Notes under the pieces: model-generated
Told to the model about the DNA's origin: nothing
What the model saw: only the letters and a program-made list of their open reading frames with translations
Database searches by the model: none
Shown here: piece by piece, positions 5,866-53,600 of the stretch
Position numbering within the stretch: position 1 is the stretch's first letter
Layout of the letters: the number at the start of each line of letters is the position of its first letter
DNA from: Apostichopus japonicus
Lineage: Eukaryota; Echinodermata; Holothuroidea; Aspidochirotida; Stichopodidae
Assembly (NCBI RefSeq): GCF_037975245.1
Contig: NC_092579.1
Location: forward strand, 11,206,678-11,270,677
Length of the DNA stretch: 64,000 bases
Direction of reading: 5' to 3'
Program-made: the position numbers and the translations under genes

Positions 5866-6051
5866 GTTCCGCGCAGAAGTACAAATTCACGAAAGCGTGT
5901 AGCACAAGTTCTGGTAACTATGTTAGGATACGGAGCATGGACTCGAGCTCCCTAAAAGACTGGCCGGGATGGCGTTCCGTAAAATGGGCGACCAAGGTTA
6001 TGCAGTCGGTTGCGAGCCAGGTTCCAATAATATTAAAGTAGGTAATAGTTC

Positions 6052-7068
6052 GAGGCACTGAAAGAGCAAGACATCAACACTAACTACATCAAAGTAATCA
6101 AAGATATCTATACTGGCAGCACAACTACTGTTAAGTTACACAAAGAAAGCAACAAAATACCAATAAGGAAAGGAGTGAGGCAGGGAGATACCATATCTCC
6201 AAAGCTCTTTACAGAATGCTTAGAACACATCTTCAAAGACATCAATTGGGAAGATAAAGGTATCAATGTGAATGGGGAGAAGCTCAACCACCTCCGTTTT
6301 GCTGATGATATAGTCATAATAGCTAACAACTTCAACGAAATGGAGAGCATGCTACAGGACTTGGACATAGCAAGCAGGAAAAGAGGACTGAAAATGAATA
6401 TGAAGAAGACCAAAGTAATGGCAGACCAATCAGTTAAACACAAACATATCATCATTAATGGAACAAAATTGGAACATGTATCTGAATACATTTACCTGGG
6501 ACAAAGGTTCACTCTCACCGAAAGGAATCAAGATAATGAAATAAGGAGGAGGATCAAAGCAGGGTGGCAAGCATTTGGCAGATACAGCCACATCATGAAG
6601 GGCAATCTACCACTATGCTTAAAAAGGAAAGTGTATGACCAATGCATCCTCCCATCAATGACATATGCATCAGAAACATGGACACTAACAATTAAAATGG
6701 AAAGAAAGTTAGCAGCCGCACAACATAACATGGAGAGGAGTATGCTTAACATAACATGCAAAGATCACAAAACCAATAAGTGGATAAGGGAACAGACAAA
6801 GGTACAGGATAAAATGGAAATAATCAAACATCGTAAATGGACATGGGCCGGCCATGTCACTAGAAGGGGAAGATGGAGCACGCTAACCACTGTATGGACA
6901 CCGCTTGACGGGAAAAGGAACAGAGGCAGGCAAAGAAAGAGATGGAGAGATGAAATACAGAAATTCTGGAATGAAACCAATTGGTACACACATGCAAGGG
7001 AGAGAGATAGTTGGAGATATCATGCTGAGGCCTTCATCCAGCAGTGGATCGACAACGGCTGAAGAAGA
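6052..7068 (+). mobile_element. 5'-truncated LINE (RTE-like) with intact C-terminal reverse-transcriptase ORF
   Basis: The open frame runs from the truncated 5' end to a stop at 7060-7062. It shows the RT segments R-Q-G-D-T-I-S-P-K-L-F and the catalytic F-A-D-D-I box, followed by K-K-T-K-V and Y-L-G-Q blocks. After these comes the C-terminal domain common in invertebrate endonuclease-RT elements (W-A-G-H-V-T-R and G-R-Q-R-K-R-W-R-D). The finger and N-terminal endonuclease regions are missing. A 12-bp direct repeat, AGGTAATAGTTC, flanks it (6040-6051 and 7069-7080). That marks a target-primed insertion, with a very short 3' tail of GAA repeats right after the stop. The lack of frameshifts suggests a recent insertion. 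RTE-like is my best clade guess. Confidence 0.85.
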
Positions 7069-13400: not shown

Positions 13401-16400
13401 ATTTGTACCTGATGGATTTCTGATTTAATGTGGTCTATGATTTTACGTATTCATACCTGAGGGAATTATGACTCTCGACCATCAGTTCACCAAATTTTTC
13501 ATAGTCTCCATCTGCAAGGGCTTTGCTAGCTGTCTGCGTTCTTGATATTTCTCCGATGACATGTCGAGCTCTACGATAGGTCACTTCATCCATCTTTCCT
13601 TTATTTTCTTTTAGTAAAAATACCCAAAAAAAAGACTACAATCATTAAACAAAGTATATTTTTATAGAAATTAATTAACAAAATTAATTTTTATATACTA
13701 GCAGAATTTCTTCCATCTGAGCAAATTACATATAGATCTACAAAACCTATTAAGAACGTCATGTGTCTGTCATGTCCTCAAATGAACTGTTTAAAAGTAG
13801 AAAAAATTTGTCAAGGACAAATGGTGATTTACTTTATGAGTCTGTTCAACTTACATGATGTCAAAAGAGCTTAATCTAGAAAATTGTTTGTAGCCCAGAC
13901 ACTGTAGCATGTTATTACCTCTCTCATTTTGGTAAAAGCTAAACTAGAAAAATCTCAAGATCTATGTTTAATGTCTACTTTATTATTTACGATGAAATAT
14001 GACTAGTCATATTTCTGATGAAGTATGACAAGTCGAGGAGGTAATGAACAGAAAATGGTAAGAGTACTTGGTACCGAACAGCATCCAATCATTCACAAAG
14101 AGCTCTATTTTTAATTCACAAAATAGTTTACCTGTCCAATGAGAATTTGCCGATTATCTCTCCATCCAAATAATGTCAGGCTTTACGTAAAACCAATGTG
14201 CAAACAGTTTAAAATGGGTTAGACAAAACTAGTAATTTCTAAGTCTCCTGTTTAAGATCTTCAATTCTTGTCCACTACGCTGTACTGACCTTCTAACTCT
14301 TCCATCGTCGCATCACGGAGGCTCTTCTTCCCAAGGATGCCTGCAACATCGTAGCACTGCTTCCTCCTAGCAGGGTACTCACTCCCTGTCAGCTCATGTT
14401 TGACATTTGAGTTAGTAACCAGTATGACGATGTCCGGATTGGTAAGAGGTATCAGCTTCGACTCCAGGGATCTAAAACAAGAGGAAAGGATAAAAGTAAT
14501 CTTGAAGTTAGCAGCAGTAGCAGCAGGGAGTCACATAGTTACTTTGTGTTGCTATTCCTATTAAAGATATTTCCACACAAGACCAATAGAAATATGCATC
14601 TATAGATAGTACTCAAACTGCTAAGTGGAATAGTACTCTCAATTCATTTTCCTAAATAGGAACTTTGCAAATTTGAGTTCTGCCATTAGATTTACCATTG
14701 AGATATGACACTCAAATTCATCCAACCCTAACACCTCAGACAAAACAAAAATGTATTGCAAAGTTTCCAAGGAAACAAAAATGGAAATGTAACTTACTTA
14801 TCACTGCAGATTGTATGAATGTCAACTTATGTAGGAACCTTATTTTGCACCACTGCTGTGTGACCTCTAAAAACACAACTTGTTTAGTGTAACGTATGGC
14901 ACACTCATTGGCAAGCTTATTACACAATTTACATGACTTTAGCTTTATCACAAAACTATAAAGTACTTTTATCATGACGACACAGCTGAACTAAAATAGA
15001 GTTTAAAAAGATTATCCAAAAGGCGGACAAGGTTAGTATTCAGGACCCTGAAGGTCAGGGGGTCTATATGTGAACACTTTACAGGTATTGAGACACACCA
15101 AATTTTTATTTCGGTTTGTTGTTCCTACATAACTTCATTGGGGGAGTGGGGGGGGGCAGCATATAGTGCTTTAGGGCCTCAGAAGGTGTAAATTCTAAAA
15201 CTGGGAAGGGGGTAGTTCAATTTTAAGATACATGTTGGGAGGCACTCCTAACCTTATAAATAAAAATACTATTCTCTACACCCTAGCACATAATTTCCTC
15301 CACCTAAAACAGCAGAGGTCAAATTTATGCAATTTCCTTACTGATGAAAAAAAAAAAATTATTGAAGAATGTTCTGAACGAACCTGCAGTCAATTAATAG
15401 TGCATAACCTTCCTCCCCCATTGAGGAAATGAACTGATCCATTATCCCACATGGCATTTTGGGAAAATCATGTTCTGCTTTCTGACAGGCTAAAGCCCTG
15501 GCTTTAGGATCAGGAGATGGAGATGAAGGATCCATTTGCTCCAAATATGTGTAGGTGGCCACCTCTAGCGATGCCGAGCTGGAAACTCCTCCTCCCAGAG
15601 GTACAGTGCTGGCGATGACTGCATTGAATGGAGCCAAGGTACCTATCGAGTCACAATGAGCACATTATTAGACAGTATGAGCACAGTATGAACACAGTAT
15701 TAGTACAGTATGAGTATGGTATGAGCACATTATGAGTATGGTATGAGAACAGTATGAGCTGAATCCAGCACCATGCATTTAACTTTTTTCAATAAGTACT
15801 CACTTCACATGAGAAAGTCAGGCTAACAACCCGTGGCTAACAAGTTTTTCATTTCAAATATGTTGCATTTTGGAGAAAATACTTCAGGATGTACAGTATG
15901 CATCTACACGTCCCTGTACTACATGCCCCTTCCCAAACACATTTACTATACGTGTATAATTTGCTACAATGATGGGCTGCTGAGCACTATTTCTAGACAA
16001 ACACTAGAACTTATCATTTCATAGAATTTCAAATAAACCTATATGTTGATTATAAGGTCTAATTATTTTCTACCCTTATGTTTCCTTAAATTGTAAAAAC
16101 ATCCTCATTAACTATGAAATACCAGCAATAACTATGACAAATCCCTGTTAGATTCTACTTAGTCACACTACCCCCTGGGTCATTCCATGCCAACTCAACA
16201 AGGGCCCGACACCCACCGTCTCAGATTTTCACCAAATTCGGTGTGGAGTTTCATAATATAAAGATAAGAATCCACGCCAAATTTTAGCTGAAAATATCAA
16301 TCGGTTCGTGAGATATCGGCTTTCAAAAATTGGTGAAATTGACCCCAAAAATCCAAAATGGCGGCCATTTTGAATTGACCTAAATTAAAACCCCCGGACT

Positions 16401-35140: not shown

Positions 35141-35835
35141 GGTACGTTTTCGATGAGTCAATTATTGAATTGGCCAAGGTCTTATCACTTCTTAGTCGTC
35201 CAAAGATTAACAAGTGAGGATTTCATTATTTAAATATTCGCTTAAGTAGCCTGATATAGGCCTAGGCTGCAGGCCTAACTGTGATACTACTGATAGGCTA
35301 CAGTAGGTTAATCGCCTACTTATCAAATACTGACATGTGTTACCAAGCGTAATGCCAATACCACTTTACCAGTTTTAACACTAGTTACAAGGATTGGATG
35401 TTCGGTTGTTGTAGTAAAAATGTTAGCAATAGCAGTTCAGGGATTGCAGTAAACAACATGCAAAGGATAAGAAGAAAGTCATAAGTGATCTCCAGCTTCC
35501 AAATATAACATTAGCTTTGGCTTTAATGTTATACTTGATGACATGAAAGACCCCACTTGAGGCCAAATACGAGATTTCATGTATACTAGCGGCAGTCACC
35601 AAAGGCATTATATTTAAATCGTGACTCAACAGAAGCCAGTAGCTCGACAACCTCATGTGTAATTACTTTTGTTAAATATGCTAACATGAAGATTTTTATC
35701 AACTTAACACAACAATTTCATGTGATTATTACAACCTAGCAAATTCAATCCTTTTGCAATTAAAAGTATGCTATGTCTCTCTGAATGCTTCTGTGTATAA
35801 TAAATGAATACAACTAGTTTAAAGCAGATTATACA

Positions 35836-37950
35836 ATGAAGCCTAACCAACATTTTTATTTCTATACATTTAGATCATCTAATCACAAAAGAACGTGGGA
35901 CTGCATTAATTCTCTCATCAAGAACAAAACCTCCACTTCTTCTGTCACTTTGTTGAAATTGGATGAAAATTGTGTTTCTAATCTCTGTGATATTTTTAAT
36001 GCATTTAACGATTACTTTACTAATATTGGTCCAAATTTAGCCTGTGATATTTCGGTTGGTATACAGAACCCCCTAGACTATATGTGCCAAGCTAATTCCA
36101 TGAATTCTTTCTTTTTAAATCCTACAGACGAAGTGGAGGTTTTAGATTGTATTTCAAATTTAAAAAATTCAAGCTGTGGTTATGACAACATTAGTCCCAA
36201 AGTTGTTAAATTATCTAGTTCTGCTATTTGCACAACTCTCGTGCATATCATTAATTGCTCTTTTTTTCAAGGTATTGTTCCGTCTGACTTGAAAATAGCT
36301 TGTGTAGTTCTGGTATTTAAAAGTGGCATGCGAGAGAGCGACAGTAATTATAGGCCTATATCTGTCTTACCTTCGTTTTCAAAGATCTTTGAAAAACTTG
36401 TATTTAATCGTTTATATTCCTTTTTAATGAAACATGATCTATTATATGATTATCAGTTTGGCTTTCTGCCTCAACGTAACACGTCCCAGGCTATTTTAAG
36501 TCTTGTAGATTATATTATTGAATCTTTTGAAAGTAAATGTCTAGTTGGGTGGATTTTTTTAGATCTCTCCAAGGCTTTTGATACGCTTGACCATTCAATT
36601 CTGTTAAAACAGCTTGATAAATATGGCATAAGGGGGCTGCATTATCTTGGTTTAATAGCTACATTCATAATAGATTCCAATATGTTTCTTTATCTGGCGC
36701 TAATTCTTCGAAGCAGGCAATTCATTGTGGTGTTCCCCAGGGCTCTATTCTTGGACCCTTATTGTTCCTCATTTATATAAACGACCTTCCTAATGTCACT
36801 CCAAAATTTCACTTTATTTTGTATGCAGATGATACTAATTTACTATATAAAGGTTGTGATATAAATACTCTTGTTAACGATATCAATACTGAAATCCCCC
36901 AAATTACTGCCTGGTTCAGATCCAATAAACTTCACTTAAATTCTATAAAAACTACCACCATTATTTTTCATCCCAATTAGTGACAAATAGTTTCTTCCAA
37001 CCTTACGATTATAATTGATAGAACGCCAGTACCTTTCTCCCATTCCACAAATTTTCTTGGCATTACCCTCTAGAGATGAAAATCTCAGTTGGATCCCACA
37101 TATTCAGAACTAAAAAAGAAAAGTGTCCAAAGCCATTGGCATTATCAATCGTTAAAAAAAAATTGTCCCCATTAAAACTCTGATAACTTTATACGATATT
37201 CTTATCTTGCCTTTTTTATCGTATTGTTGTATTGTGTGGGGTTACACTTATCCTAGTCATATTAATAAGCTCTATATTCTGCAAAAGAAAGTGTTGCATG
37301 CAATTTACGATGTTCCTTACAATAGTCACTCGTACAGCCTCTTCTGTGACATTAAACACTTAACGATATTTGAATTAGTCAAGTACTACACCTTAATCTT
37401 TGTATATAACTTCTTTCATGACAATCTACCAAGTAGCTTCTCCTATTTTTTGTATCAAATAATTGTTTTCATGCTTACAATACCCGCAATGCAAATTTAC
37501 TTTCCGTTCCCCATTATTCTCTTGCAAGTAGTCAACATTTTGTCAAATACTGTACTCTGCTATTTCTTATTGGAATTCCGTACCAACTGCATTGCATTCA
37601 ATTAATAAGTTATCCTCATTCAAACGTAATTTAATGCGTTACCTTCTTTCGAATAGAAATGAATGATTTAGTCTAAACTTCGGGCCACGTCTTAGTTAAC
37701 GTTTTTTTTTTCCCTTCTCCCCCACACTTTTTCTTATTATTATTATTCATTTTCTTGTAACATTTTTTGTTGTTGTCATACTTTGTACCTTTGTTATACT
37801 TTGTCAGTTTGTATTTTGGGGATACCTCACTTATAAGTTCTTATGAACTTTTCGAGGATCCCCACAACCATATACTTTGTATACATGTATATACTTGAAT
37901 TATGTAAAATGTTGATAACGTTGATGGTTGAAATATAGTTGAACAAACAA
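35836..37950 (+). mobile_element. decayed LINE (CR1/L2-like) reverse transcriptase
   Basis: The ORF from about 35836 carries N-Y-R-P-I-S-V-L-P, the Q-F-G-F block and motif A (F-L-D-L-S-K-A-F-D-T). Near 36645-36650 a frameshift moves the frame; the next frame holds G-V-P-Q-G-S-I-L-G-P and then Y-A-D-D-T. A stop follows at 36978, and a third open piece (37207-37605) holds the C-terminal L-S-Y-C-C-I-V-W-G and L-Q-K-K-V blocks. The 3' end around 37810-37950 has the GGATACC/GGATCCCC inverted pair and a GTTGAACAAACAA-like tail. It is 5'-truncated and inactive. Confidence 0.85.
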
Positions 37951-38304
37951 CAATGATGACCTTGGTAGTAGGACCATAGTTTGTAATACTTGTGTCTTTA
38001 CCAAAATGGCATATTATGGTGAAAGGTGGATTTCATTATCATATCAACACTGCTAGGTTATTGTATTGACTGACAGCAGAGAAAAGATGTAATGTGTATG
38101 GCCTCAGGTACTCAGCTTGCCCAAAAAGTGGTTTATATTTTGCAACAAAATATCATAAAATCAGGCAATTTGTGAAACACTTTTGTTCAGGTTTTGGTAC
38201 TGTATATATATTGACACTTATGGCCGTCATCATTGTTTCATGTCATCCTATTACCTGTTGTTTTGTCATCTTTCAGTATTTAACTCGATTACAAGGCTGC
38301 AACA

Positions 38305-38463
38305 ATGGACTATGGAGAAACAGCCACCATGTTCAGTGTTGATGGAAGTACACTTGATACCACGCTAGCACCAGACCCAGAGGATAACCTTGTTTGGGGA
38401 GTTCTCGGCTTACTTGCAATCTCATCCATCCTCATCTTTCACTATTGGATCAAGAAACTATGA
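38305..38463 (+). CDS. small single-pass membrane protein, 52 aa, unrecognised
   Basis: ATG in a good context (ACAATGG) opens a 52-residue frame. The acidic N-terminal half contains APDPEDN. One hydrophobic helix follows at about residues 30-47 (VWGVLGLLAISSILIFHYW), and the tail is IKKL, like a C-terminal tail-anchored protein. A splice acceptor (TTTTGTCATCTTTCAG, ending about 38276) lies just upstream, which fits a coding last exon after a non-coding first exon near 35.1 kb. The decayed LINE would then sit in the intron. I recognise no family. The KK at -2/-3 suggests ER retention, though it is not a canonical KKXX. It could be a chance ORF, but its composition and context favour a real gene. 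Confidence 0.55.
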   Translation: MDYGETATMFSVDGSTLDTTLAPDPEDNLVWGVLGLLAISSILIFHYWIKKL

Positions 38464-41283
38464 TTATGGACATACGCTAGTGTGCTACGTTGACATTGAA
38501 CTCATATCTTCTTCCTGGTCATTTGCATGGGTGCCAACAACCTGATTCAGTAAATAGCAGATAACAAATATCTCACCATGACAATGATATTTGGATTGAA
38601 CTTTATGTAAACTAACTATATAGAGCTGTAGCCTGCTTTCTCTTAGTTTAGGACTTTGCTCTAGAACTTATTTCTGCAAATATTTCTTCTAACAAGAGTA
38701 TTCCTGTTATTCTACTGTTACTTGGGAGATAAACTGCCATTTGTAATGTTTCTTGAGAAGATTAACTTGTTGTTGGAGGGGGGGGGAGGGGTGGTGAGGA
38801 GGATAAAATATTATAAATTATATATTAACTATTCTTGTTGAAATGACACAAGTTTGAAAAGTTAAAGCTCATAAGAAGTATTCTTGTCAACTCTTGAAAG
38901 ACATTGTTGCTGCATCTCAAAACCAGGCTCAGAATGGACCTGCTAAGGCTGTCCAGATACTGTATGTAGACATCAGAGAAGAATTATGTCTAGAAAGGAG
39001 ATATCTCACCAGGACCAAATTTTAATTTTAGCACTTGAGTTCTTTGTCGTCCTCATAACATTAGTCATGGCAGCTCGGTGATTAGACTATAACTTGAGAC
39101 AGTTGCCGTTATTTCAAAGGCTGGCTGTCGAATAGAAATTGTCAGCGTTCACTGTTGTCTGATGAAGCTGTGCTACAGTGCACTGAATAAGGTATGACCA
39201 CGGAGAGCATCAGCTGTACAGAGGGCTCAGTCTTTGTTATCAGCTTTATTGGTACAGGGATTGTTGAGTCTCATCATGAGAGTCTTAATAAAAATGTAAT
39301 CAATGTTTGCAGAATTTATCATTTTGTTCCATTTTTCCAAATGACAATTGTTCATCCAGTTTCCATTCTTCCAAAATAAATGATATGAAAATAATAATAA
39401 TAATCCAATAATAATAATAATAACCTAAATCCAATCATAATAATATTAATAATAGTCCAAAATAAATAAATGATATCTTCCTCTGTGTAAAAAACAATAT
39501 CAAGTTGTGTTTGAAAATGTTTCAAAGAGAAATTTTTCATCATAAATGATAAGAGGAATAAATAAATTATATTTTATCAGTAGTATATTTAAGTCTGTTA
39601 TGTTCATCTTTAGTCTGTTTATGTAACTTACTTTAAAAGCCATCACTGTTGGCCCCCAATTATAGCATACTACACTTTCCATAAATATTTTTTTCTGGAA
39701 GTTCAGATTGTTCACATTAGTAAAATACAGGCAAATGCTTTGCAAGTGGTAGTTAAATGCATCTGGTTGTTCAAGCACACGTTACCATAATTTCACATTA
39801 CAGCATACATATTTGGGGACAAACTTAGGTTGGCTCCATTTCCACCTCTGGCACCGAAACCATTGCAACTCTTGTTTTTCCTTGCAGTGGGAATTTGGGG
39901 AGGGGAAGGTTCTAGGTTTCAAATACAAATGTCAATTTATGAATATGCAATTCCTTTACAACTATTGAATGATTTCTTTAATTATGGAATGACTATTAGA
40001 TTAAATTGAAGAGAAACTGATAGATGTAAGAAACTAGCACATATTACCAGTTCACTAGGCTCTAAAAGCACAAACAAACAAAACATGAGAAATAATTTCT
40101 TGTAAAAGAGTCATCCATTTATTTCAGAGATAATTGATGCAAAGATTTTCCATTCATTTTCTTGACTTAAAAGATAATTAATTTCTATTGATAAACAAAG
40201 TTTGCCAAAATATGATAAAAAGATGAAACTATTACATAAATGTACAAGATGTCATTGAATTTTGATGCCCAAAGTTTAGAATATTTCCAAAAAGGTTGCC
40301 CAACATATCCAAGAAAATCTGGTGAGCTTCACTTAAATGTTCTGAAGATCCACACCCATTGTCTAGCAACCACCTGGATCCATTGCCTAGCAACCACCAG
40401 ATCTTCATCAATGGAATACAATTGATGAAACTTACAAAACCATTTTGTGGTGTCATTTTACAAAGGGAAATATAGTATACCTTCAAAATATCACAACTGC
40501 TTGAATTTAAAAGGGGTAAAAAGGTTAACTGATGGGATGCATTGGTACCAAAATATCACTTAAAGAACGTCTGTTTCCGTCGGTTACTATGACTACAGCC
40601 AAGACTAAAAGTTCTCTCACAGCAATGAATACAAGGTGAAGTTACTTATGCGACACACTAGAAGAAATTCTCAGTGAGTGAAAATGTTTTAAAGTATTGT
40701 GGTCATTTTAACATATCAAGCAGTTTCACCCACTCTTGATATTTCCTATCCAGGTCTTCAGTGTTAACCACAAATATGCTGTACACATTACAATTTACAT
40801 AACATTTGGTCAGGATTTATGACATAGAAATATAAACCTACCTACTTTGAATCTCTTCTGGGTTTAACTTGGAAGTGTAAGGAACCATCAGGAATGCACA
40901 AATTTATAGCAAATTATAGCTATTTAGCTAACTTTTGGTGGCAAATTTTCCAGCTTTAATAGCTTCATTTATGAATATGGATAGATCTTAGTCTTCTTAG
41001 AGTCAATAAGTCATGGTCAGATTACCCCTAAGTTACGATGCTAAAATTGAAGAAAGTTTCCAAATCTCTTTTATTTTGAGTATTTTTTTGTCAAGGTTGG
41101 TAAACTGGAATGAAAAGAAGCTCCTTTTTAAATGAAAGAGTTGTTTGACATTAATTTACTTATCTCGTTAGTTAGTACACTGTCCATGTGCATTTGTCTG
41201 TCACAGATGACCATAACTAGGGCCTTGTTCAGTGTGTCAATATTGACAGAATTTGTGCAGTTTACTAAAAATGTGTGTCAGCA
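38464..41283. other. tail-to-tail intergenic region
   Basis: It likely starts with the 3' UTR of the 52-aa gene; a candidate AATAAA lies at 39287-39292. It includes an AAT microsatellite at about 39390-39470 and a short duplication of TGCCTAGCAACCACC near 40350-40400. I see no other gene. Confidence 0.5.
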
Positions 41284-41297
41284 TTTATTTCTTTATT
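41284..41297 (-). terminator. candidate ATAD5 poly(A) signals
   Basis: Two AATAAA hexamers on the minus strand (41292-41297 and 41284-41289) lie just past the 65-bp minisatellite, about 270 nt after the stop codon. Confidence 0.5.
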
Positions 41298-41315
41298 GTA
41301 TGTAAAGATCTGGCT

Positions 41316-41648
41316 TCTGAAATGCCTGCTTCATCATCGATGATATCTACATCGCCTGCCTCTTGTTTCATCTCCTGCCTTCTGAAATGCCTGCTTCATC
41401 GTTGATGTTATCTACATCGGCTGCCTCTTGTTTCATCTCCTGCCTTCTGAAATGCCTGCTTCATCGTTGATGTTATCTACATCGGCTGCCTCTGGTTTCA
41501 TCTCCTGCCTTCAGGAATGCCCACTTCAATATCGATGTTATCTACATCGCCTGCCTCTGGTTTCATCTCCTGCCTTCAGGAATGCCCCCTTCAATATCGA
41601 TGTTATCTACATCTGTTGCCTCTGGCTTCATCTCCTGCCTTCTGAAGT
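41316..41648 (-). repeat. 65-bp minisatellite spanning the ATAD5 C-terminus and 3' UTR
   Basis: Five units; the shared anchor (TTCATCTCCTGCCT on +) begins at 41367, 41432, 41497, 41562 and 41627, exactly 65 bp apart. The unit nearest the gene body is coding. Because 65 is not a multiple of three, the next unit is read in another frame and supplies the stop codon (41563-41565). The remaining units form the 3' UTR. Confidence 0.93.
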
Positions 41649-44600
41649 GCTCTGCAACTGAAGCTAGCTGGACTTGGTCAGTTACTTTCAATGGCAATGA
41701 AATTGCATCAAAGTAGTGCAGAAACCTGTAGAGTTAAATATACACAATTCAATTCAAATACTAAAGCATCCAACAGTAGCATATATGGAACAGCATGAAC
41801 CTTACATTGTATTACCAATTAACATCTATCCGTATATATGCAAATAACCTTAAATATTCAGCAATTAGTGAAAACATGCTGCATTAATGATACAGAGGAT
41901 ATTCAAAAATGGTCATATTTAATACCACAACAAAAATTCATCGCAGGCCTCCTAAAGCCATCAAGAATGGAAATTCTCTGAAACTTGAGACCTACTGTAG
42001 TACCTGAAAGGTCAAACTACATCAGATGGGCTTGGCTGAAACTTATCATATTGCAAATAATATGTTTGTGAAGTTTTGTGGCTTACCGTCTCTTAAGATG
42101 AGCTGCTTCCCTAAGTTGTTCACTTCTGCATATGGATCGCATGGTAGGCAGGTAATCTAATGATACGTTATGATGATTGCACCTTATCACCCGAGGAAGT
42201 TTCCTAGCAACGATCCCATAGAGACCGCTTCTAAAAGATCAATCAAAGAATGGAACAAACCACTTTGAATACAGGAAACCTCTTTAATCAAGAATTCTTG
42301 CAAACAAAGCAGTATATATATTGCTTTTTTTTTAAATATCTGTTATTTATTTCTTTTGGAAAAGAATAGGTCTCAAACTTAAACCAGTCACTTTTCAAAC
42401 ATAAGAAATTGGAATACAGTTAGCAGCAGCCCCATATATTGTTATAGGGGGTATGTTTGGGCTGAAAAAAACAACAACATGGTATTGTTTTATTCAAGAT
42501 TGAGTTTGTAAGTTCCTTCTCGACATTTTCAATATTACAGTAAACTGTCACAATACCAGTTTTAATCCATTTGAATCTAGACAAAACCCTCTACTTTTTT
42601 CCCCATTGTCTTTTCTTGGTCCTGCATAATAAGCAGTGTTAACACAATGGTTTCCTACATAAATTAAGGAACAAACTAACGCTTAGTGGTCACCATTACA
42701 CTTTAAATTCATTCTTAGTACAGTAACATTTCTGACTGTACCATTAATGTACCTACAGTACACCAATGTCTGAACATTTACGTTTAAACCATTAATGCAA
42801 GCAACAGTTTTATATTTTATCAAGGACCTACTTTAATAAAATAATTGCCCTATTAGATTGTCGACGACTAACTCTACTAGATGATGGTTAAAAATACTGA
42901 TGAAAACAAGGATAAATGTGTGAAATCGTACAAAAGTATACGTACATTTCTCGTGACTGTCTGCAATCTGATTTCAGAAGACTGTTGGAGCTCTGATCTT
43001 TCCCGAGTTTGGCTTCTGGCGTCGACGAATTCAAGTCCTCGTAACTATTCTTGATCTGCTCCAGGTTTCTTTTACAAAGGCTAAAATTTTCCCATTCTAA
43101 AACACTACAAAGATCCTCATTAAACTCTCTCCTACTCCATTGTGTCATTCTGTCATCTGAAACGTTGTCTAGACCCGCGTACACATCTACACCCCACCAA
43201 TGCCCCTCCTCCTTGTCGACGTTACCATTGTTCCAACCAGCAGTGTTCTCCAATACGTCCAAAGTGCACAAATTATCCGTGTAACTGCTCAGTTTCTCAA
43301 CAAACTTCAGGTCCAATTCTTTACTGTCCGTTACACGTTGAAGTTCCTCATCGTCCAGTTTTTTTGGACGATTCACAATTTGAGGACTCTCTGAATGCGT
43401 CCGGTTTGGTGGAGAATACGAACAAAATGTCTGCAAAGTATTCCTTTCCAAATTACGAATTGAATCTTTACCGTATCGCAAGAGTTTTCTGATAGAGTTA
43501 TATGAAGTGATGGATCCACAAGGTGCTTGTTTTGTATTCTGAAAATAAAGTAAGACCAACGAGAACAAAAAGAACAAAAACAGCCATGAAATTCAAGATA
43601 AAATTCCATCAAAATAAAGAGCAACAGAAATGTAAGCACAATGATGATTAATCATTTCTCTAAACAAGGAAATAACAGCAACTTTCCCTTGATTAAACTG
43701 AGCTGATGAAAAAATGAACAAGGTTTGTCAACCACTGAATAAATGATGTCAGAACAGCTGGGTTTTTCTTGTGCCTCGATTTCTTTTCCTTTCATAGGAT
43801 ATGTATTGCTTTGTGTCGAACAAATGGTATTTCTAACTGTTCTGATCAATGCTTATGTGGAATATTAAGGAGTGGTCAAGTGCAGTATTCAAGGAGACCT
43901 CACTTTGTAACTTTTACCAACATATCAATTGGATTTTGACTGTTGTTGAGAAAGTAATCATCTGATTACTGAATTTGAGAATTTGAGAAAAAAAAATATT
44001 GGCAAATATAGTGGTTAAGGATATTACTATACATGTATAAAATAAAACTTCCCCCTCATGATCAAGTTTATGCAGCGGAACCTACAGAGACATTAAAAAC
44101 TCAGAATTCTTTTCATCTAAAAAAGTTTAGCTGTTTACCTGAAAAATAGCATCCACAGAATGAACTGTTCCACATCCTAAAAGGCTAAGCAAACTGTTCT
44201 TATTCAGTTTCGGCAACGAGGAATTTTCTGTTCGTTCCTTCGCATTTTTCCTCTCATCATCTGGTGAGTTCTTTTTAAGGAGGCAGGTATAGTCTGATGT
44301 TCCTTTTAATCTCTTCAGGGAAAGCTTGCAGACTCTTCTGTAAGGAGAAATGTCCCCGGCTTGCTGCCATGGCGACAGCATTGCGCCAGTATTCACCCAT
44401 GCCTGTAGGCTGTGGAGGCTGCGCCTAATATCGTTTCCATAGTAACTGACTAGATTCTTTACGTCTTGGTGATCAGTCAGCACATTCTCAGCTAAGCATA
44501 CCAGCTGCATACTTGTAGCAAGTCTAGACTGTTAGTGAAAAGTTGCCATGGAAACAGGTCATAATTCATAATAAGTAACTCTCAACTGGTACTTCATAAA

Positions 44601-47600
44601 GTAATCTGTAATTTCAAAACTACATACTTAAAAAAAAAGGCACACATTGATCACATTACTCACTTCTTAGTAGCTTGTTCCATTGCAAAGATGTAAAAAT
44701 TCTGAAATTATTACATATATTTTTTGATAAGTACATTGCAGAAGAATAAGGGAAGTCATACATGGACCATGCATCAACAGTCTTTGCATTAGTTTTATTG
44801 TTTTCACTGATGCAACTGACCACTGAAGAAGTAAAACCATTGTTTAACTTGAACACATCTTTATACCAAGCATAAATGAAAGATTTATGACTAACCTAAG
44901 TTTAAACAATCAATAATTTACAGTCTACTTACTGTATCTGGTTTCCTTAACACAACATGTTCAATTTTTCCTTCTAGGCAATCTCCAAAGTGGTTATCTG
45001 TTAACAAAAAAAGTCCATTCTCACATTAATCTCAATGAAGTCATCATGTGTCTGGGTCAGGGGGAGGGGGTACTTCACAAATTAGAAGCATACTGGATGT
45101 AACATTTAGCAGGATTGAGCAAAATTAAATTTAAAGAAGATAATAAATATAATTACAAATCCTTTGGATTTAATAAAATATCAAGTCATAGTTCACTTGT
45201 TACTAATTGTTCACATCCACTACACATCAATGCTCACTCCTCATAAACATTGGATCCAATCATTTTCATTCCAACTACAGGTCCAGGTTTTGTGCCACTG
45301 AGTTCTGTTTCTCTTTAATATTCTAAACTGAAATGGGGTTCTGTCGAGATTTATCAGTCTAGGTGTATATTATCTTTATAAATAACACACAAGCTGTAGA
45401 GCTTATGCTAACCTTCTTCCAATTTATAATCCCGTAGTGACCTGGCATAGTAATGGACGTTCTCGGTTACTAAACCTACCATCACTTTCAAGTACTACCC
45501 TGGCATAGCAAGGAAGTTCTTAGTCCTCGTTTACTTACTTACTAAATATCGCTATCAAGTATACCCACCTGAAGTTGTAAGGATGATGGGTCTTTTCGTA
45601 CTTGCCATAAATGTACTAATAGCACTCAAGAACCCTTTGTCCTCTTCAAATACGAGATCTACCTGTGAATGAAATGAAACCACAGAGAAATAGTTTCAGC
45701 GTTTGATAGATGCTTGATGCTGGTTGGCAGATTGTCCATGACGGCTGAATAATATAATGGACCTGGCAAACCTAATGCACTGACATGTAAGCTGGCTTCA
45801 AACAGGCTTTGTATGTGCTATCTAAAATGAACTGATTATTACGCAAATCAAGGTTGAACAGAATCAGCCTAAGAAACCCTGGAGACCAGCTGAAGATTAG
45901 AGAGCCCATACTCAATGAATTTGATTGAATTATATACTTTCCATAACCCACCGGTTTCTCACCTTACAGCATTAATCCCATACCGTAACAAATTGGAAAC
46001 CTGGGAATATTTGACATAAAATTGACAGATTGAGATAAAGAACCACATTCATTTTTCAAATCTATTTATCATATCTTGATAGCATGTATGTAGCATCAAA
46101 AGTGTATTTATGTAAGGTTATCAGGAAGAGAAATATCAGAATAAAATGAAAGAAAGAGGAACCAAATTTAATGGAGAAACGTCTCACAATCAACAACCAG
46201 GGAAGCAGCTCAGATCAAGTTCGTACCTCCACAAGTCCTAGCTAAACTACTTTTCTTGCCCTTCTCTTCCCTCTTTCCTAACCACCAAAAGGAGAGTAAT
46301 TACAATTGATCCACCACTAAACATAAAATAGATAATCAGCCTGGCAGGCACTTAGTTTACAACTCTAATCAGCCATATAACTAAGAATGGCATGGAAGCC
46401 AGAATGGCATGGAAATTAAGCTTCACATCAGGTGACTGTACAATTTACAGTTAATGCTCATTTTAGCAATTTGAAAAGGCCATTTCAGATGGGAAACACA
46501 CTGTGGATTTCTCCTGGATGCAAAGACAACCCACCTTAGTTATTTTGGCCAGCCAGTGATCTCACTCATAAACCAGCAGCGGTCAGGTTTCATTACTACT
46601 AATGTGCCACACCTTTAATCTCCTCCAGCCTAGCACTCAGACATGGTGTGTCTAAACATTATATCTGGTTTGGAACTAACAGGTGGTAGCTGTACTGTTC
46701 CATACTTTTGAAGAGCAGCGTCTGAGATTTGTTTTCATCCCAAAGATTTAATCTTGTAAAACCCCTTTGTTACTTACTTCATCGAAGAGAATGAGGGTTG
46801 CGCCCGAGACAGCAGACTTGATCTTCTCTGGAACAGAGGGCTTCATTGCTTGTGACCCCATCTTTCCATTTCCAGGGCTCTTGGCTGATTTTGTCTTCGG
46901 GGACGATCTACCCTTCTTAGGGGTTAAGTTCTTCGCGGACGGTCTCCCCTTCTTAGGGGTTAAGTTCTTCGGGGACGGTCTACCCTTCTTAGGGGTTAAG
47001 TTTTTCGGGGAGGGTCTACCCTTCTTAGGGGTTAAGTTCTTCGGAGACTTTTTGGGTGAGTCTTTTTTGACAGCTGTTTTCCTTGGTGTCGTCTTCTTGG
47101 ACGGCTTTGAGTTAACTTTTTCAGACGATTTCTGACCAGCTTTGACGAATGCTGCAAAAGCTTTATGAATCTTTGGTTTTGCTTGTTTGACCGGTTTCTG
47201 CAAAACAAAGCAAAAGAAAAACAAAGACAAAAAATTATTGACTATGTTTTCTTTTTCCTTCTCAAAAGTGAATAATGAACCAGGAGACCGCAGACATTCT
47301 TACCATCGTAATTTAAACTGTTTTGATTCTTTAATATTATTTATATTCCTTGAGACTTGAATACATTAACATACATTTTGACTTCTGAACATGATGAAAG
47401 AAGTACCCCATTGGTTAGTAATGTCCTTGTAAACACTGTTTACTTACAAGATTATTTGGGTTGACAGGATACCATATTATGTGTATCCTGTTCTATATAA
47501 AACATCCATGTGATGGCAGCTCACACCATGTTGAAAATGTTGACTGACATTACCACAGTATTTGGTTCACACCTTGTCAATATGTTACTTTGCAAATGTC

Positions 47601-50600
47601 CTCTCAAGCTAATAATAATCAAGAATAAAATTATCACCATTGGGCTTCAGGTGCATAAATAACACTCAAATTTTTCTAAACTATGTCACAAGACCAAACG
47701 GCAGGTCCTTACAGAGGTCAAAAATCACATGGCAGGACATGTTCCCCGCATATTTTATGTCGGAAGGATCACTCCGTTTTGATATCAACTCACCTTAACC
47801 AGAGCAGGTGGAGTCTTCAATTTAAAAAACCTTGCAAGGTCAGCAGATTTGAGACCTGCCTGACCGGTTAATTGATGTGACTGAGTGGCCTCACCCAGGT
47901 CATCCAATATCTGCTTTCCAACTCTTTTCGACGAAGCGTTCACTTCAATAACCTGGAATAAATTAAAAGAACTGTTAAGTTTTTGTCACCCTTAAATACA
48001 TATCAATGCTACCATAGGCACATAGTCATGCCACCATATCTAAAGTACTCGTAATGACGAGAAATAACTTAATTATCATAAATCCATGTGATCCATTTCT
48101 GAGAAATGTTCTGGGTAATGCTTTCAAAAATAAACACAGAATTTGTTTTAAAACAGTGTACCCTTGTTTGCTGCTCTTGTTCTTTCAAATCTCAATTGTA
48201 TTGGAAAACAAAAAAATATCGATTAAATGTTCTTTGTTTTCTGCAAGCATATGCAAATAAGTAATTGTGTTATTAGTGTTAGATCTAGTATAACAACAGG
48301 TAATATGTCAGGCAGTGAACCTATTATCAGAGTCTACTTTGGATCGTTCCCAAATCACCGACATATTTCACTTGCCAATATACACAGAGTATTTTTTCTT
48401 AAAACAGGGAAGGAAATATATGCCAGAGAAATGTCGTGTGTTGTTCATGGAACTGCATTTGCCTTCAGATATATCCTTAGATTCATCATACCTAACTGTG
48501 GTTATAAAGTGTTGAATCTTTGTGCAATTTAAATATTCATGGTCTTTACCTTACTGAACAGAAAAATTAGAGAAAGTAAGTAGAAGGAAAGCTTGCTTAT
48601 ATAGTGTTATTCCTATTGCTATGATATGGAGTTAGGAGTGTTAGCTCAGTGGTTAACGCCGGTGCCTTTCAATCATAAGGTCCCTGGTTCGAGTCACTCC
48701 AAGATTAACGTATGTCGTCCAGTTACAGAGTTGTTGACAATTCATAATCATGGACGTTAAATATGAATGTAAGAGACTTCGGTCAGCTTGCGGCTTTGAT
48801 AAGCCAATGAGGCTTCTTCGCGAGTTCCTGCTTGCAGGAAGATCTAAAATACATACATACAAACATGATATGAGGCTATCCACAACAATATATGAGGACC
48901 TGCACCGCCTGACTTGCATATTACAGAAGGAGCTGACATTTACATTCTTTCACTGTATACAAACCTTGAATCCCATTTCCTTGGCACAGGCGTAGACCAT
49001 GGATGTTTTGCCTACTCCGTGGGGTCCTGTGATGAGGAAGGTATTACAGATGCCATCTCCTTCATCCTCACTTCCGGAACAACCTCCGTCACTTGGTTCA
49101 AAATCACTCTCACTGTCTTCTCTTGTTTCAGCTGGAAGACCAGAAATGAAAATTATTTTCACAAAATCTTCAGAGTAACAGCCACTCATTGCCATTGACC
49201 AAAAGTCTCCTCTTACCAATGACTTGATAAACACTTCAATTAAGGATTGAGAGAAGCAAGGCAAATTCTTCAGAGAAAGTTAGGATTTGCCTTGCATTTT
49301 CATTGAAGTATGGCAATTTTGTACAGTCGATACCGTTGGCAACGGATGGTTAATAGGGGCGTTTAACTACTAGAGGTAGTGTAGGGGCACCGACAACAAT
49401 TAGCCATCTGTCAGGTGTCAGTGAACTTAAGCCCTGCACTTGATCTGCGACACAAGTTTCAGAAGGACATGAAAACGCTGTTTATGTGAAGCTCAGGATG
49501 CATAAATACATTCAGTGACCATTATTATATTTTTATAACTTATCATGGCCACACCAGGCAGGCAGGGAACAATACAGTGCTAGACAAAGGCACATTTGAC
49601 ACCATGGCTGACACAAAAGTTGTTAATTATACATAAATCAGAATGAACAAGTAAAGGATATCTGAAGTACAGGTCAGGAAAAAGGTTATGGATCAACCAA
49701 TACCATACAGCAGGGGTGAGCAACCTTCTTGAATGAATGGGCCAGATATAGGGAGTGAAAAATTGACTGGGCCGCAACTAACCAACAACCTGCTGTTGAT
49801 TCCAAACCTTTGATTCTAAGCAGCTAGCTTGTTTTTTGTGATGATGTAAAATAGATTGATTTTTTTTCTTTTTCTTGAGACATCTCATGGGCTGCAAAAA
49901 AAACTGGCCCTACAGCATCATATTGGTTTTGATTGCTGGTATTAATGAACTATGCTGCGCTGAACAAAACTGAAGCTTCTTACCTGCGGTATAAATGAAC
50001 CATGCGTTGAACCAACTGAAGCTTCTTACCTGCGGTGTTAATAAACTATGCGTTGAACAAACTGAAGCTTCTTACCTGCAGTGTTAATGAACTATGCGTT
50101 GAACAAACTGAAGCTTCTTTCATGCGGTATTAATGAACTATGCGTTGAACAAACTGGAGCTCCATACCTGCAGTGTTAATGAACTATGCTTTGAACAAAC
50201 TGAAGCTTCTTACCTGCGGTATTAATGAACTATGTTGCGTTGAACAAACTGAAGCTCCATACCTGGGGCGTTGAACAAACTGAAGCTTCCTACCTGCGGT
50301 ATTAATGAACTATGCTGCGTTGAACAAACTGAAGCTTCTTACCTGCGGTATTAATAAACTATTAATGTTATAGAACCATGCGTTGAACAAACTGAAGCTT
50401 CTTACCTGCGGTATTAATAAACTATTAATGTTATAGAACTATGCGTTGAACAAACTGAAGCTTCTCACCTGCTTTACACCCTCTTTGGGCTTTGGCTTCC
50501 TTCTTCTTTATCCTTTGTATTTTGATTTTCCAATCTGAGAGCCAACCGCCAAGTTTCTTCACAGATACTGCATTACCGAGAACTTCTTCAGAGCTTGTAG

Positions 50601-53600
50601 GTTGATATTTATCACTCCATAATAGATCGGTCGGTGGAAGTTTTTCTGTTGACAAAATATAAAACTATCATATAAAGAAAAGGCGCAAATACCACCAATC
50701 AAACTCATCTGGGTTTAGGTAAGTCTGCCTCATACACATAACTTGAACATTCAAGGCAGGAAATAAGTTAAATTTCTCAGACTCATTGCAGAAAGACTAA
50801 GATTAAAAACATGTTTATGAACGTTAAACATCTGAAGGGGCTTACTCAAGCCTTACTGAGGATAACTGAATTCAATGCAAGCCCAGACCAGTGATTGCCT
50901 GAAAAAAATCAGTTCAAATAAAAAATAGAGTGTGTTTTGTTTAGGGATGCTTAAAAGGGCTATTGTATAACACTATTTTGGGTACTCTGATCTCAAAACA
51001 TTGTTTTCTTTGCAAATTAATAAAGCTATGATAGATTTCTTCAACTGTTTGGTGAATACGGTGGTCTTTACAATAAGATACCACCAAATGTACATGTCAT
51101 TGAGAGGTAGGAATGCCACATACCTTGTGATAGATAACCTGTCTAAATTAAACTGACTGTAATTACCATGATATGGGTTTTATGTGATGCTATGTGCATC
51201 AGATAAGTGTATCAGGTGCAAATTGTCCAGAGACATTTAAGCGAGCAAACAGATAATTTTTTTGTGAATATCACCCCTTTTTACATTTATGACAAGACCA
51301 CAGAATCTGCTCACCCTTAGGTTTACCCTCAGACTTGATATTGTCTCTCTCTTCATCAGCTGCTCCCTGTTTGTGGTCCTTCACTGACTGACCTCGCAGT
51401 GACCTCCTCCTGACCTTCCTCTGAGTGGGGTCATCTTCACTCTCTGTTTTTCTCTTTCGAGAACCTTTCCCCAGCTGTGTCTTGCTTGTGGTTGTATGAC
51501 TCCCATCTACATATAAAGTGTGCACAATAACACAAGGTGGTGATACATACATTTAGGGAGTGTTTGCTCAGTGCTTAACGCCGGTGCGGTTCAATCATAA
51601 GGTCCCGAGTTCGAGTCACTCCAAGATTAATGTATGTCGTACAGTTACAGAGTTGTTGACAATTGACAATTCATAATCATGGACGTTAAAAAATGAATCT
51701 AAGAGACTGACTTCGGTCAGCTTGCCGCTTTGATAAGACAATGATGGCTTCTTCACGAGGTCCTGCTTGCAGGAGGATCTAAAATACATACATACATACA
51801 TACACACATACATACACACATACATACATTACATGTTGCTAACATGAACACATTGCATTTCTAATCATCTCTCTCTCTCTGTTTTGGTATTACTTTGGAT
51901 TTAAGAAGTATTATCATAATTCAATCAATGGAAGGTCACATGATGGAAACTAAGTTTCTTGTTTTCATAGTGTTTTCATCGATGAATTGTACAGTATTAT
52001 TTGTGTAAAAACACAATCAGAAAATAAAATCGGGCGAGGTGGACTTGAATTAATTGCCATTTAGTTTTTTACTGTTATTAGAAAACAATTTTAATCATTT
52101 ATTAAATTAACTAACAAGGATGAGCACAACATTTACGAACTTTTCAAACAGGAAAAGAAATTAAAACTGATAAATATATAAAAGGGGCATTGTGAAGAAA
52201 TTCTACAATACAGGAAGACATGTATGATACAGGTACTGTATATCTGAAAAAGGTGAAACTTGCACTTCACGAGTTTGAAAATATATATGCATGCATCTTT
52301 CGTTAGACCACTGTTCATTGCACTTGCACAGCTATGATGAAAATAATAATTTCAGATAAGTTTTGCAAACTTGAATATAAAAAAAATGAAACTATCTACC
52401 TTTTGCTTTCTTTTCTTCTAATGTCTCTCCCTTCCGCTTGGCCAGGTAACGCTTGAAAATTCTCTTGACAGGAAACTTGGGATTATGCTTTGAAATTTCT
52501 TCCAGTGCAGCTTTTTGACTCTCGTATGAAAGTTCTGGATGCTTCCCAAACTGGAGAAAATGATAAAACAAAATTCTTCATTGTAAAATGCAAGAACGAA
52601 GTGAAAAAATACGTAAATTAGGCAAACATTTCAAGGAACTACTAGCTTATCCGGAAGCCATGTAATTAATGGGATGAATTAATTTAATCACTGTTGCCAT
52701 TGAACTCACCAGTAGTTAATAGTAACCCTTCCAACTAAAAGTATCATCCATAAGATCAGAGGAAAATTCAAGAAATCAAAATTCGCACAACTATGCAAAC
52801 ATCTGAGGGTCTGATTTTCTTGATCACAGCTGAATCTTTTTCAAAAGCAGCCTTAAGTTCATCAGTTCTCAAAAAATGTACATATCTTCAAAAATATGTC
52901 TTCTGAAGAGATTAAGCAATTTTCAGCAAATTTCAATGAAATAATGTACATTTTTACATTTTTGATTTTTAAGTGTGGGAATTTAGTTATCAACCTTTAC
53001 GAACACAGGACTTTTTTCCTTAGGTGATGTATGTATGTATGTTTATGTGATCTTCCCGCAAGTAGGAACTCGCGAAAGAAGCGTTCGGTGGTGCTTTCAA
53101 TGCCAGTATTATCCCATAGTTTTGTTACTTTTTATCATAATATACCCAGCAAATCAAGCATACCAACCTTAACATTGGGTATCCTGAGATCGGCTTTGTG
53201 ACTACAGGTGAATTTATCGAGTGATGCGTTCCAGTCGATGGCAGGAGGTGGTGTGTTCCCTAGCACGATCCTTGATATTTTTAATTTAGAGTGGTCAACA
53301 TCAGGTAAATTCCAAAAGCTCCTCAGATCACCTGATTCATCTGGGTAGGACGAAAGAGTCACAAGGGATTTATTTATAAGATGTTAAACAATTGAAGGAA
53401 ACAAAGAATAGAAGATATGCAAGGTTCTGAAGGATAAATGCTTCAAAATACTTCCTGAATTCGTTCATTTTCCAAATCACAAAATCATCGTCGGAAGCTG
53501 ACTTTTCAAGTCAAGAATCAGACATCTGTGAATCGTCTTCAGAAAAATTTGTAAACTATACCAAACGTCCGACAAAAGAATTGTACCACTCGAAACTTAC

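Follow-up and report, generated by a model that had tools for sequence, protein, structure and literature searches.

The question this locus raises is why an intron should begin with a series of near-copies of the splice site that opens it. The window analyzed here, 64,000 nucleotides of Apostichopus japonicus DNA (NC_092579.1, positions 11,206,678 to 11,270,677), had been described in a sequence-only reading that noticed about ten donor-like copies at the start of an ATAD5 intron, held most of them to be closer to the consensus than the genuine site and proposed that they could tune the splicing of the exon before them, while cautioning that they might be a neutral minisatellite. We find that the array is most probably of this last kind, and that similar arrays occur at other genes of the same genome.

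A donor-bearing array at an ATAD5 exon

The gene is indeed ATAD5, as had been proposed. When its joined exons were searched against the PDB with phmmer, human ATAD5 was the best match (8ui7 and 8uii, E 7.7e-24 and 1.5e-23), whereas a clamp-loader relative of another name reached only 2.5e-9 at best with the same query, which carried three surplus residues at the join. The end of the upstream exon (50469) and the start of the next (49131) agree with each other in phase, and they also agree with human ATAD5; the intron between them opens with GTGAGAAGCTTCAG right after the exon end (Table 1). The gene model is rough, and one false exon was placed inside the array.

The array occupies positions 49938-50472 of the minus strand, where the sequence-only reading had located it, and consists of 11 head-to-tail units: that of the genuine donor, where the exon ends CAG/GTGAGA as had been claimed, followed by ten copies. 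Units run from the last four exon bases, GCAG, and have a basic length of 46 bp; in order, they measure 63, 63, 49, 31, 49, 46, 46, 46, 46, 46 and 50 bp, the last excluding 8 flanking bases. TRF reports a period of 46 with 7.0 copies and 86% match over 49938-50265. A 30-base core, searched with up to three mismatches, has ten matches, all within the array (the genuine unit is counted and the last unit missed), and none in 100 shuffles. GT is kept in nine of the ten copies, the number first read: six carry CAG/GTAAGA, two GTATGG and one GTAGGA, and the tenth reads GCATGA. The whole 535-bp array has one match in the 671-Mb genome in a search that skips very common words, which does not fit a transposable element or dispersed repeat present at many loci.

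Table 1. Positions, in the window, of the array units and of the exons and intron that surround them.
Feature	Position	Strand	Basis
ATAD5 coding exon, 177 nt, directly 5' of the P-loop exon, ending ...AAAGCAG	50469..50645	minus	phmmer; acceptor, frame and donor
Array-bearing intron, 1337 nt, the array being its first 531 nt	49132..50468	minus	phase-compatible acceptor TTTCATTTCTGGTCTTCCAG/CTGAAAC
Next ATAD5 exon, 5' part, with P-loop GPHGVGKTS	48950..49131	minus	Pfam AAA, E 7.7e-5; PDB ATAD5
Unit 0, genuine donor CAG/GTGAGA with the last 4 exon bases GCAG, 63-bp form	50410..50472	minus	sequence
Unit 1, copy CAG/GTAAGA, 63-bp form common only to units 0 and 1	50347..50409	minus	sequence
Unit 2, copy CAG/GTAAGA, 49 bp	50298..50346	minus	sequence
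Unit 3, truncated copy CAG/GTAGGA, 31 bp	50267..50297	minus	sequence
Units 4-5, GTATGG copy and GTAAGA copy	50172..50266	minus	variant order as in units 6-7
Units 6-7, GTATGG copy, then GCATGA copy without GT (50080-50125)	50080..50171	minus	sequence
Units 8-10, all CAG/GTAAGA; array ends ...TTAATACC, then AGCA	49938..50079	minus	sequence

Differences between the units suggest part of their history. The 63-bp form is confined to units 0 and 1, so that these two most likely stem from the latest duplication. Position +3 is A in unit 1 and the other nine copies and G in the genuine donor; since all ten copies have A, the G would by parsimony be the younger state. The order of two variants in units 4-5 recurs in units 6-7, which points to a duplication of two units at once. 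Finally, AGCA is common to the exon end (AGCAG) and to the sequence right after the last unit, a four-base match that fits a microhomology-mediated first duplication and, as a single case, is only suggestive.

The name mirage was given to tandem repeats lying across exon-intron boundaries in amphioxus Adh3, and such repeats were later reported from amphioxus globins (PMC3087553). They are described at both 5' and 3' boundaries, with a length difference between haplotypes and somatic instability at Adh3 (PMC3087553); in the amphioxus mirages, among them those of Adh3 and of the globins BflGb6 and BflGb9, AG/GT is reported to be kept in many copies, with concerted turnover among units (PMC3087553; PMC3902484). 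A paper on PGBD5 adds a mirage in TnC and likens its own repeats to mirages (PMC3902484). The amphioxus mirages resemble the ATAD5 array in having units of exon end plus splice site, in retaining AG/GT and in turning over with shared variants; they differ in the gene concerned and in unit length, which is 150-160 bp in the globins, 10-72 bp in Adh3 and 46 bp in ATAD5. Neither the GFP family (PF01353), of which amphioxus has many genes, nor the molluscan haemocyanin domain gave a match in this genome; since the control genomes (14 in the GFP search) were silent as well, the missing GFP match speaks only weakly against an amphioxus host. The ATAD5 unit spans the exon-intron boundary of a coding exon, and its units, tens of base pairs long, share features in the manner of minisatellite turnover (units 0/1, 4/6 and 5/7). 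In its anatomy the array is a mirage.

Other duplications and repeats of this general type have been tied to splicing. For potato RdRp, the gain of an intron by tandem genomic duplication is reported (PMC4974935); tandem duplication within a gene with consequences for splice sites is common to both cases, but in ATAD5 no new intron is evident and the copies lie inside an existing one. ABCA7 has an intronic VNTR described as affecting splicing (PMC5954066); it too is an intronic tandem repeat in a gene, but its unit is not known to copy the gene's own donor. No genome-wide count of mirages was found in the literature searched.

The window holds several further repeats. In the same intron, at 49690-49935, lies a stretch that has the look of an interspersed repeat; at 49690-49920 it carries CAGGGGTGAGCAACCTTCTTGAATGAATGGGCC and resembles the ends of hAT-type elements. 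A 65-bp tandem array of 5.3 copies (41310-41655, minus strand), whose unit length is not divisible by three, apparently runs from the last coding part of a minus-strand gene into what follows; its reading ...FLHYFDAISLPLKVTDQVQLASVAEHFRRQEMKPEATDVDNID... we take to be possibly the ATAD5 C-terminus. A third tandem array of the ATAD5 region is a 36-bp in-frame coding repeat of PKKGRPSPKNLT units in an exon at 46894-47048 on the minus strand. Elsewhere, an 11/33-bp repeat at 15656-15759 (minus strand) lies near the 5' end of a GHMP-kinase (galactokinase-like) exon, a short way upstream of it, and is possibly a mirage-like array on the acceptor side. Nearly perfect ATC repeat fills about 360 bp at 1604-1966, and two reverse-transcriptase fragments (Pfam RVT_1) lie on the plus strand at 6049-7062 and 35818-36780.

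Strength, products and constraint of the donor copies

The sequence-only reading had GTAAGA closer to the consensus than GTGAGA. Letter by letter this is correct, but it does not carry over to strength, and the copies are not supported as better donors. With a donor weight matrix and a U1 end entered by hand, on which all bit scores and duplex energies rest, the genuine GTGAGA scores 11.51 bits with a U1 duplex of -11.1 kcal/mol, the GTAAGA copies 11.11 bits and -11.0 kcal/mol, the GTAGGA copy 9.25 bits and -10.7 kcal/mol, and the GTATGG copies 9.41 bits and -7.7 kcal/mol. The copies therefore equal the genuine donor or fall below it, and none exceeds it. Beside six other donors of the rough gene model (5.55, 5.94, 7.41, 7.48, 7.70 and 12.32 bits), the genuine site is a good one for ATAD5. 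Most of its copies are hardly distinguishable from it in strength, so the first copy would have to be chosen by its position, as the one that bounds the exon.

Reading through the exon end leads to a TAA after 12 residues, GEKLQFVQRIVL. An exon extended to any of the ten copies meets this same stop, including the four GT copies that add a length divisible by three. Since every extended exon ends at the same TAA, longer protein isoforms are excluded, and ATAD5 protein is predicted to be obtainable from the first donor only. The expectation that use of a decoy would yield a nonsense transcript thus extends to all ten.

Compared with the consensus, the nine donor positions of the ten copies differ in 7/90 cells and the rest of the unit in 28/370 (gaps counted). 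Base changes counted with the genuine unit included number 8/99 in the donor motif and 14/389 elsewhere, a difference that points toward less conservation of the motif (Fisher p 0.10). The donor motif in the ATAD5 copies shows no sign of being kept. In other arrays of the genome the rates point both ways, and there the test is biased, those arrays having been found by that very motif; the ATAD5 array alone, noticed in the sequence-only reading, is free of this bias.

Donor-motif arrays elsewhere in the genome

Similar arrays were sought genome-wide with patterns of three donor motifs spaced 15-46 bases apart, overlapping matches being counted. The patterns gave 519 and 864 matches, against 330 and 764 when read backwards, and a narrower pattern gave 124 against 229. 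By these counts donor-motif arrays are not generally commoner than arrays of backward words, and the backward control is no chance baseline, TGARTGGA being a commoner word than AGGTRAGT (59,166 against 44,102).

Among the matches listed, the first 100 for each pattern, a first set comprised 17 array places, located on contig C1 and in the initial part of C2; 16 of them were examined (C2:5596254 was left out). In five of the 16 arrays the start coincides with the donor of a protein-supported exon, three more offer nothing beyond an open frame and an acceptor-like site, and eight have no recognizable donor at the start. The supported exons are of the YJU2/SAF4 family (Pfam 2.8e-12), TIL (Pfam 1.1e-9), glycosyltransferase 21 (1.3e-10), tyrosine phosphatase (6.2e-10) and the SPTLC1/LCB1 subunit (PDB 8.8e-6); the glycosyltransferase is presumably UGCG-like. 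The YJU2/SAF4-family array has about 30 units, and AGGTGAG is kept in 12 of them, the genuine unit included.

The narrower pattern yielded a second set, which among the matches listed holds 16 array places over C2-C18, one of them already in the first set. Ten further arrays were examined, and five places of a single 51-bp C9 family were left out; the sole supported case was an array at a DDX42 exon donor (PDB 4.5e-13). Altogether, 6 of the 26 systematically examined arrays begin at supported donors. This count omits C1:3939066, C2:2297031 and C2:301431, where the evidence goes no further than an open frame plus an acceptor-like site and where we took weak PDB matches for chance; an array at an amino-acid transporter exon donor (2.5e-9) was a chance find outside the 26. 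Scaling up the first 33 Mb, with its five supported cases, gives about 100 for the whole genome, and the true size of the class may be several times below this, as the narrower pattern over C2-C18 added one supported case.

Some arrays of these sets have features of their own. A 40-bp donor-motif array (L049/L038, G000:C1:4703609-4705402), about 70-90 nt 3' of a TIL exon, is in two pieces that flank a reverse-transcriptase-like frame, as if a retroelement had interrupted it; its places C1:4703609 and C1:4704988 were counted separately and may be one array split by that frame. Another (L117, G000:C18:15461670-15462650) lies about 140 nt after an exon that by eye is SPAG6-like and opens TTCATTGCAG/GTAAGT, with an acceptor-like end abutting a donor as in recursive splice sites. 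The 51-bp donor-motif repeat (L113, G000:C9:28736100-28737160, and five more C9 places) is a dispersed tandem family, present at no fewer than six places (at least 6) on one contig, rather than a single-locus array.

Whether arrays favor genuine donors was judged against the first 39 AGGTRAGT sites listed on C1, of which 30 had an open frame of at least 22 residues and were scanned. Pfam support was found at 5/39 isolated sites, one of which (L107, AIG1) may lie within an exon rather than at a donor, and at 8/39 when three that looked exon-like by eye are added. For the first set, the arrays stand at 4/16 on Pfam only (p 0.42 against 5/39) and at 5/16 with the PDB case (p 0.13 against 5/39); with by-eye cases on both sides, 8/16 against 8/39 (p 0.048) hints, though the criteria were lenient and not equal on the two sides, that arrays start at genuine donors more often than chance. 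For both sets together the values are 6/26 against 5/39 (p 0.32) or 8/39 (p 1.0), and 9/26 against 8/39 with by-eye cases on both sides (p 0.25). The comparison is uneven, array exons having been trimmed by eye and isolated sites taken as the longest open frame, and enrichment of arrays at genuine donors is not established. The 44,102 occurrences of AGGTRAGT stand against a Markov expectation of 37,500 to 41,800, an estimate not precise enough to yield the proportion of true donors. Because arrays (6/26) and isolated sites (5/39 or 8/39) differ unclearly, random seeding suffices, and any chance duplication that spans a donor seems able to start an array.

Origin of the array and its meaning

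The ATAD5 array is, with good probability, a near-neutral minisatellite of the mirage kind, seeded by duplication across the exon-intron boundary. A short duplication, possibly aided by the AGCA match, would have produced a second copy of some 46 bp of sequence that starts four bases before the exon end and reaches into the intron, and unequal exchange or replication slippage would then have added one or two units at a time until there were 11. Each copy carries a donor because the unit starts at the exon end. The first copy would have stayed the working donor and the other ten would be near-neutral intronic passengers. We infer the order and mechanism of the duplications, this neutrality and the exclusive use of the first copy; against neutrality, nine of the copies keep a donor close to the exon, six as strong as the genuine one and three somewhat weaker, and these could well cost some mRNA. 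The neutral minisatellite, raised at first as a caution, is the best reading given the anatomy, the lack of extra conservation of the motif and the similar arrays elsewhere.

The regulatory role that had been suggested fares less well. Here the copies would bind U1 and either define the exon or divert transcripts into nonsense products, so tuning ATAD5 output. In its favor, seven of the ten copies lie within 0.4 kcal/mol of the genuine site's U1 duplex energy, all ten share the stop 12 residues on, and splicing of a PAH exon has been tied to U1 binding downstream of the 5' splice site (PMC5933811). However, conservation of the donor motif does not exceed that of the rest of the unit, the motif is altered in four of the ten copies, one of them without GT, and similar arrays lie at unrelated genes. 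The published analogues also appear to splice normally: Adh3 data and globin RT-PCR suggest that mirages leave splicing undisturbed (PMC3087553), and the lancelet Adh and TnC mirages are described as being without aberrant mRNA (PMC3902484). We consider a regulatory platform of this kind decidedly unlikely.

Very improbable is the use of the copies to make extra isoforms. Transcripts of human IFI6 (6-16) are said to use two downstream units of a minisatellite as donors, and by its description the layout is similar, a donor-bearing repeat adjoining the genuine donor (PMC4526556). The downstream copies of IFI6 are thus reported as used, whereas none of the ten ATAD5 copies gives an open product. 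There is also a minute chance that the copy number is an artefact of collapse or expansion, since the count comes from one assembly; nine of the 11 units (all but 1 and 2), however, are each marked by a substitution, insertion or truncation not explained by simple duplication during assembly, and many other donor-motif arrays exist in the genome. Scarcely credible, finally, are recursive-splicing points with acceptor and donor back to back (CAG/GTAAGA): the copies read ...TTAATACCGCAG/GTAAGA and nine of ten keep AG/GT, but the pyrimidine tract is poor (acceptor scores of the unit ends in a toy model 0.36-1.39, against 3.17 and 2.23 for two real acceptors), the intron has just 1337 nt, and sites about 46 nt apart would seem to leave too little room for an intron.

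A near-neutral mirage at ATAD5 is an ordinary example of a little-known kind of repeat, and its interest lies in the class. A broader proposition, which we put forward tentatively and regard as unlikely, is that donor-anchored arrays recur here, perhaps outside amphioxus, at tens of genes (up to about 100 if the first 33 Mb are typical) that include splicing-factor genes (the YJU2/SAF4 family and DDX42); that position alone lets the spliceosome pick out the first donor from as many as about 30 similar ones; and that copy number tunes the share of nonsense transcripts between individuals.

Work on how the spliceosome selects among 5' splice sites of equal strength generally relies on engineered duplicates. 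This genome offers a natural set of them, at ATAD5 (with nine extra GT copies), the YJU2/SAF4-family gene, the UGCG-like gene, SPTLC1, DDX42 and others, on which the selection of the first among many equivalent donors could usefully be examined. Near-exclusive use of the first copy in RNA would mean that position outweighs strength; any other outcome would mean that mirages exact a measurable price in nonsense transcripts. The set also extends mirages, reported so far from a few amphioxus genes, to more genes and perhaps to another clade.
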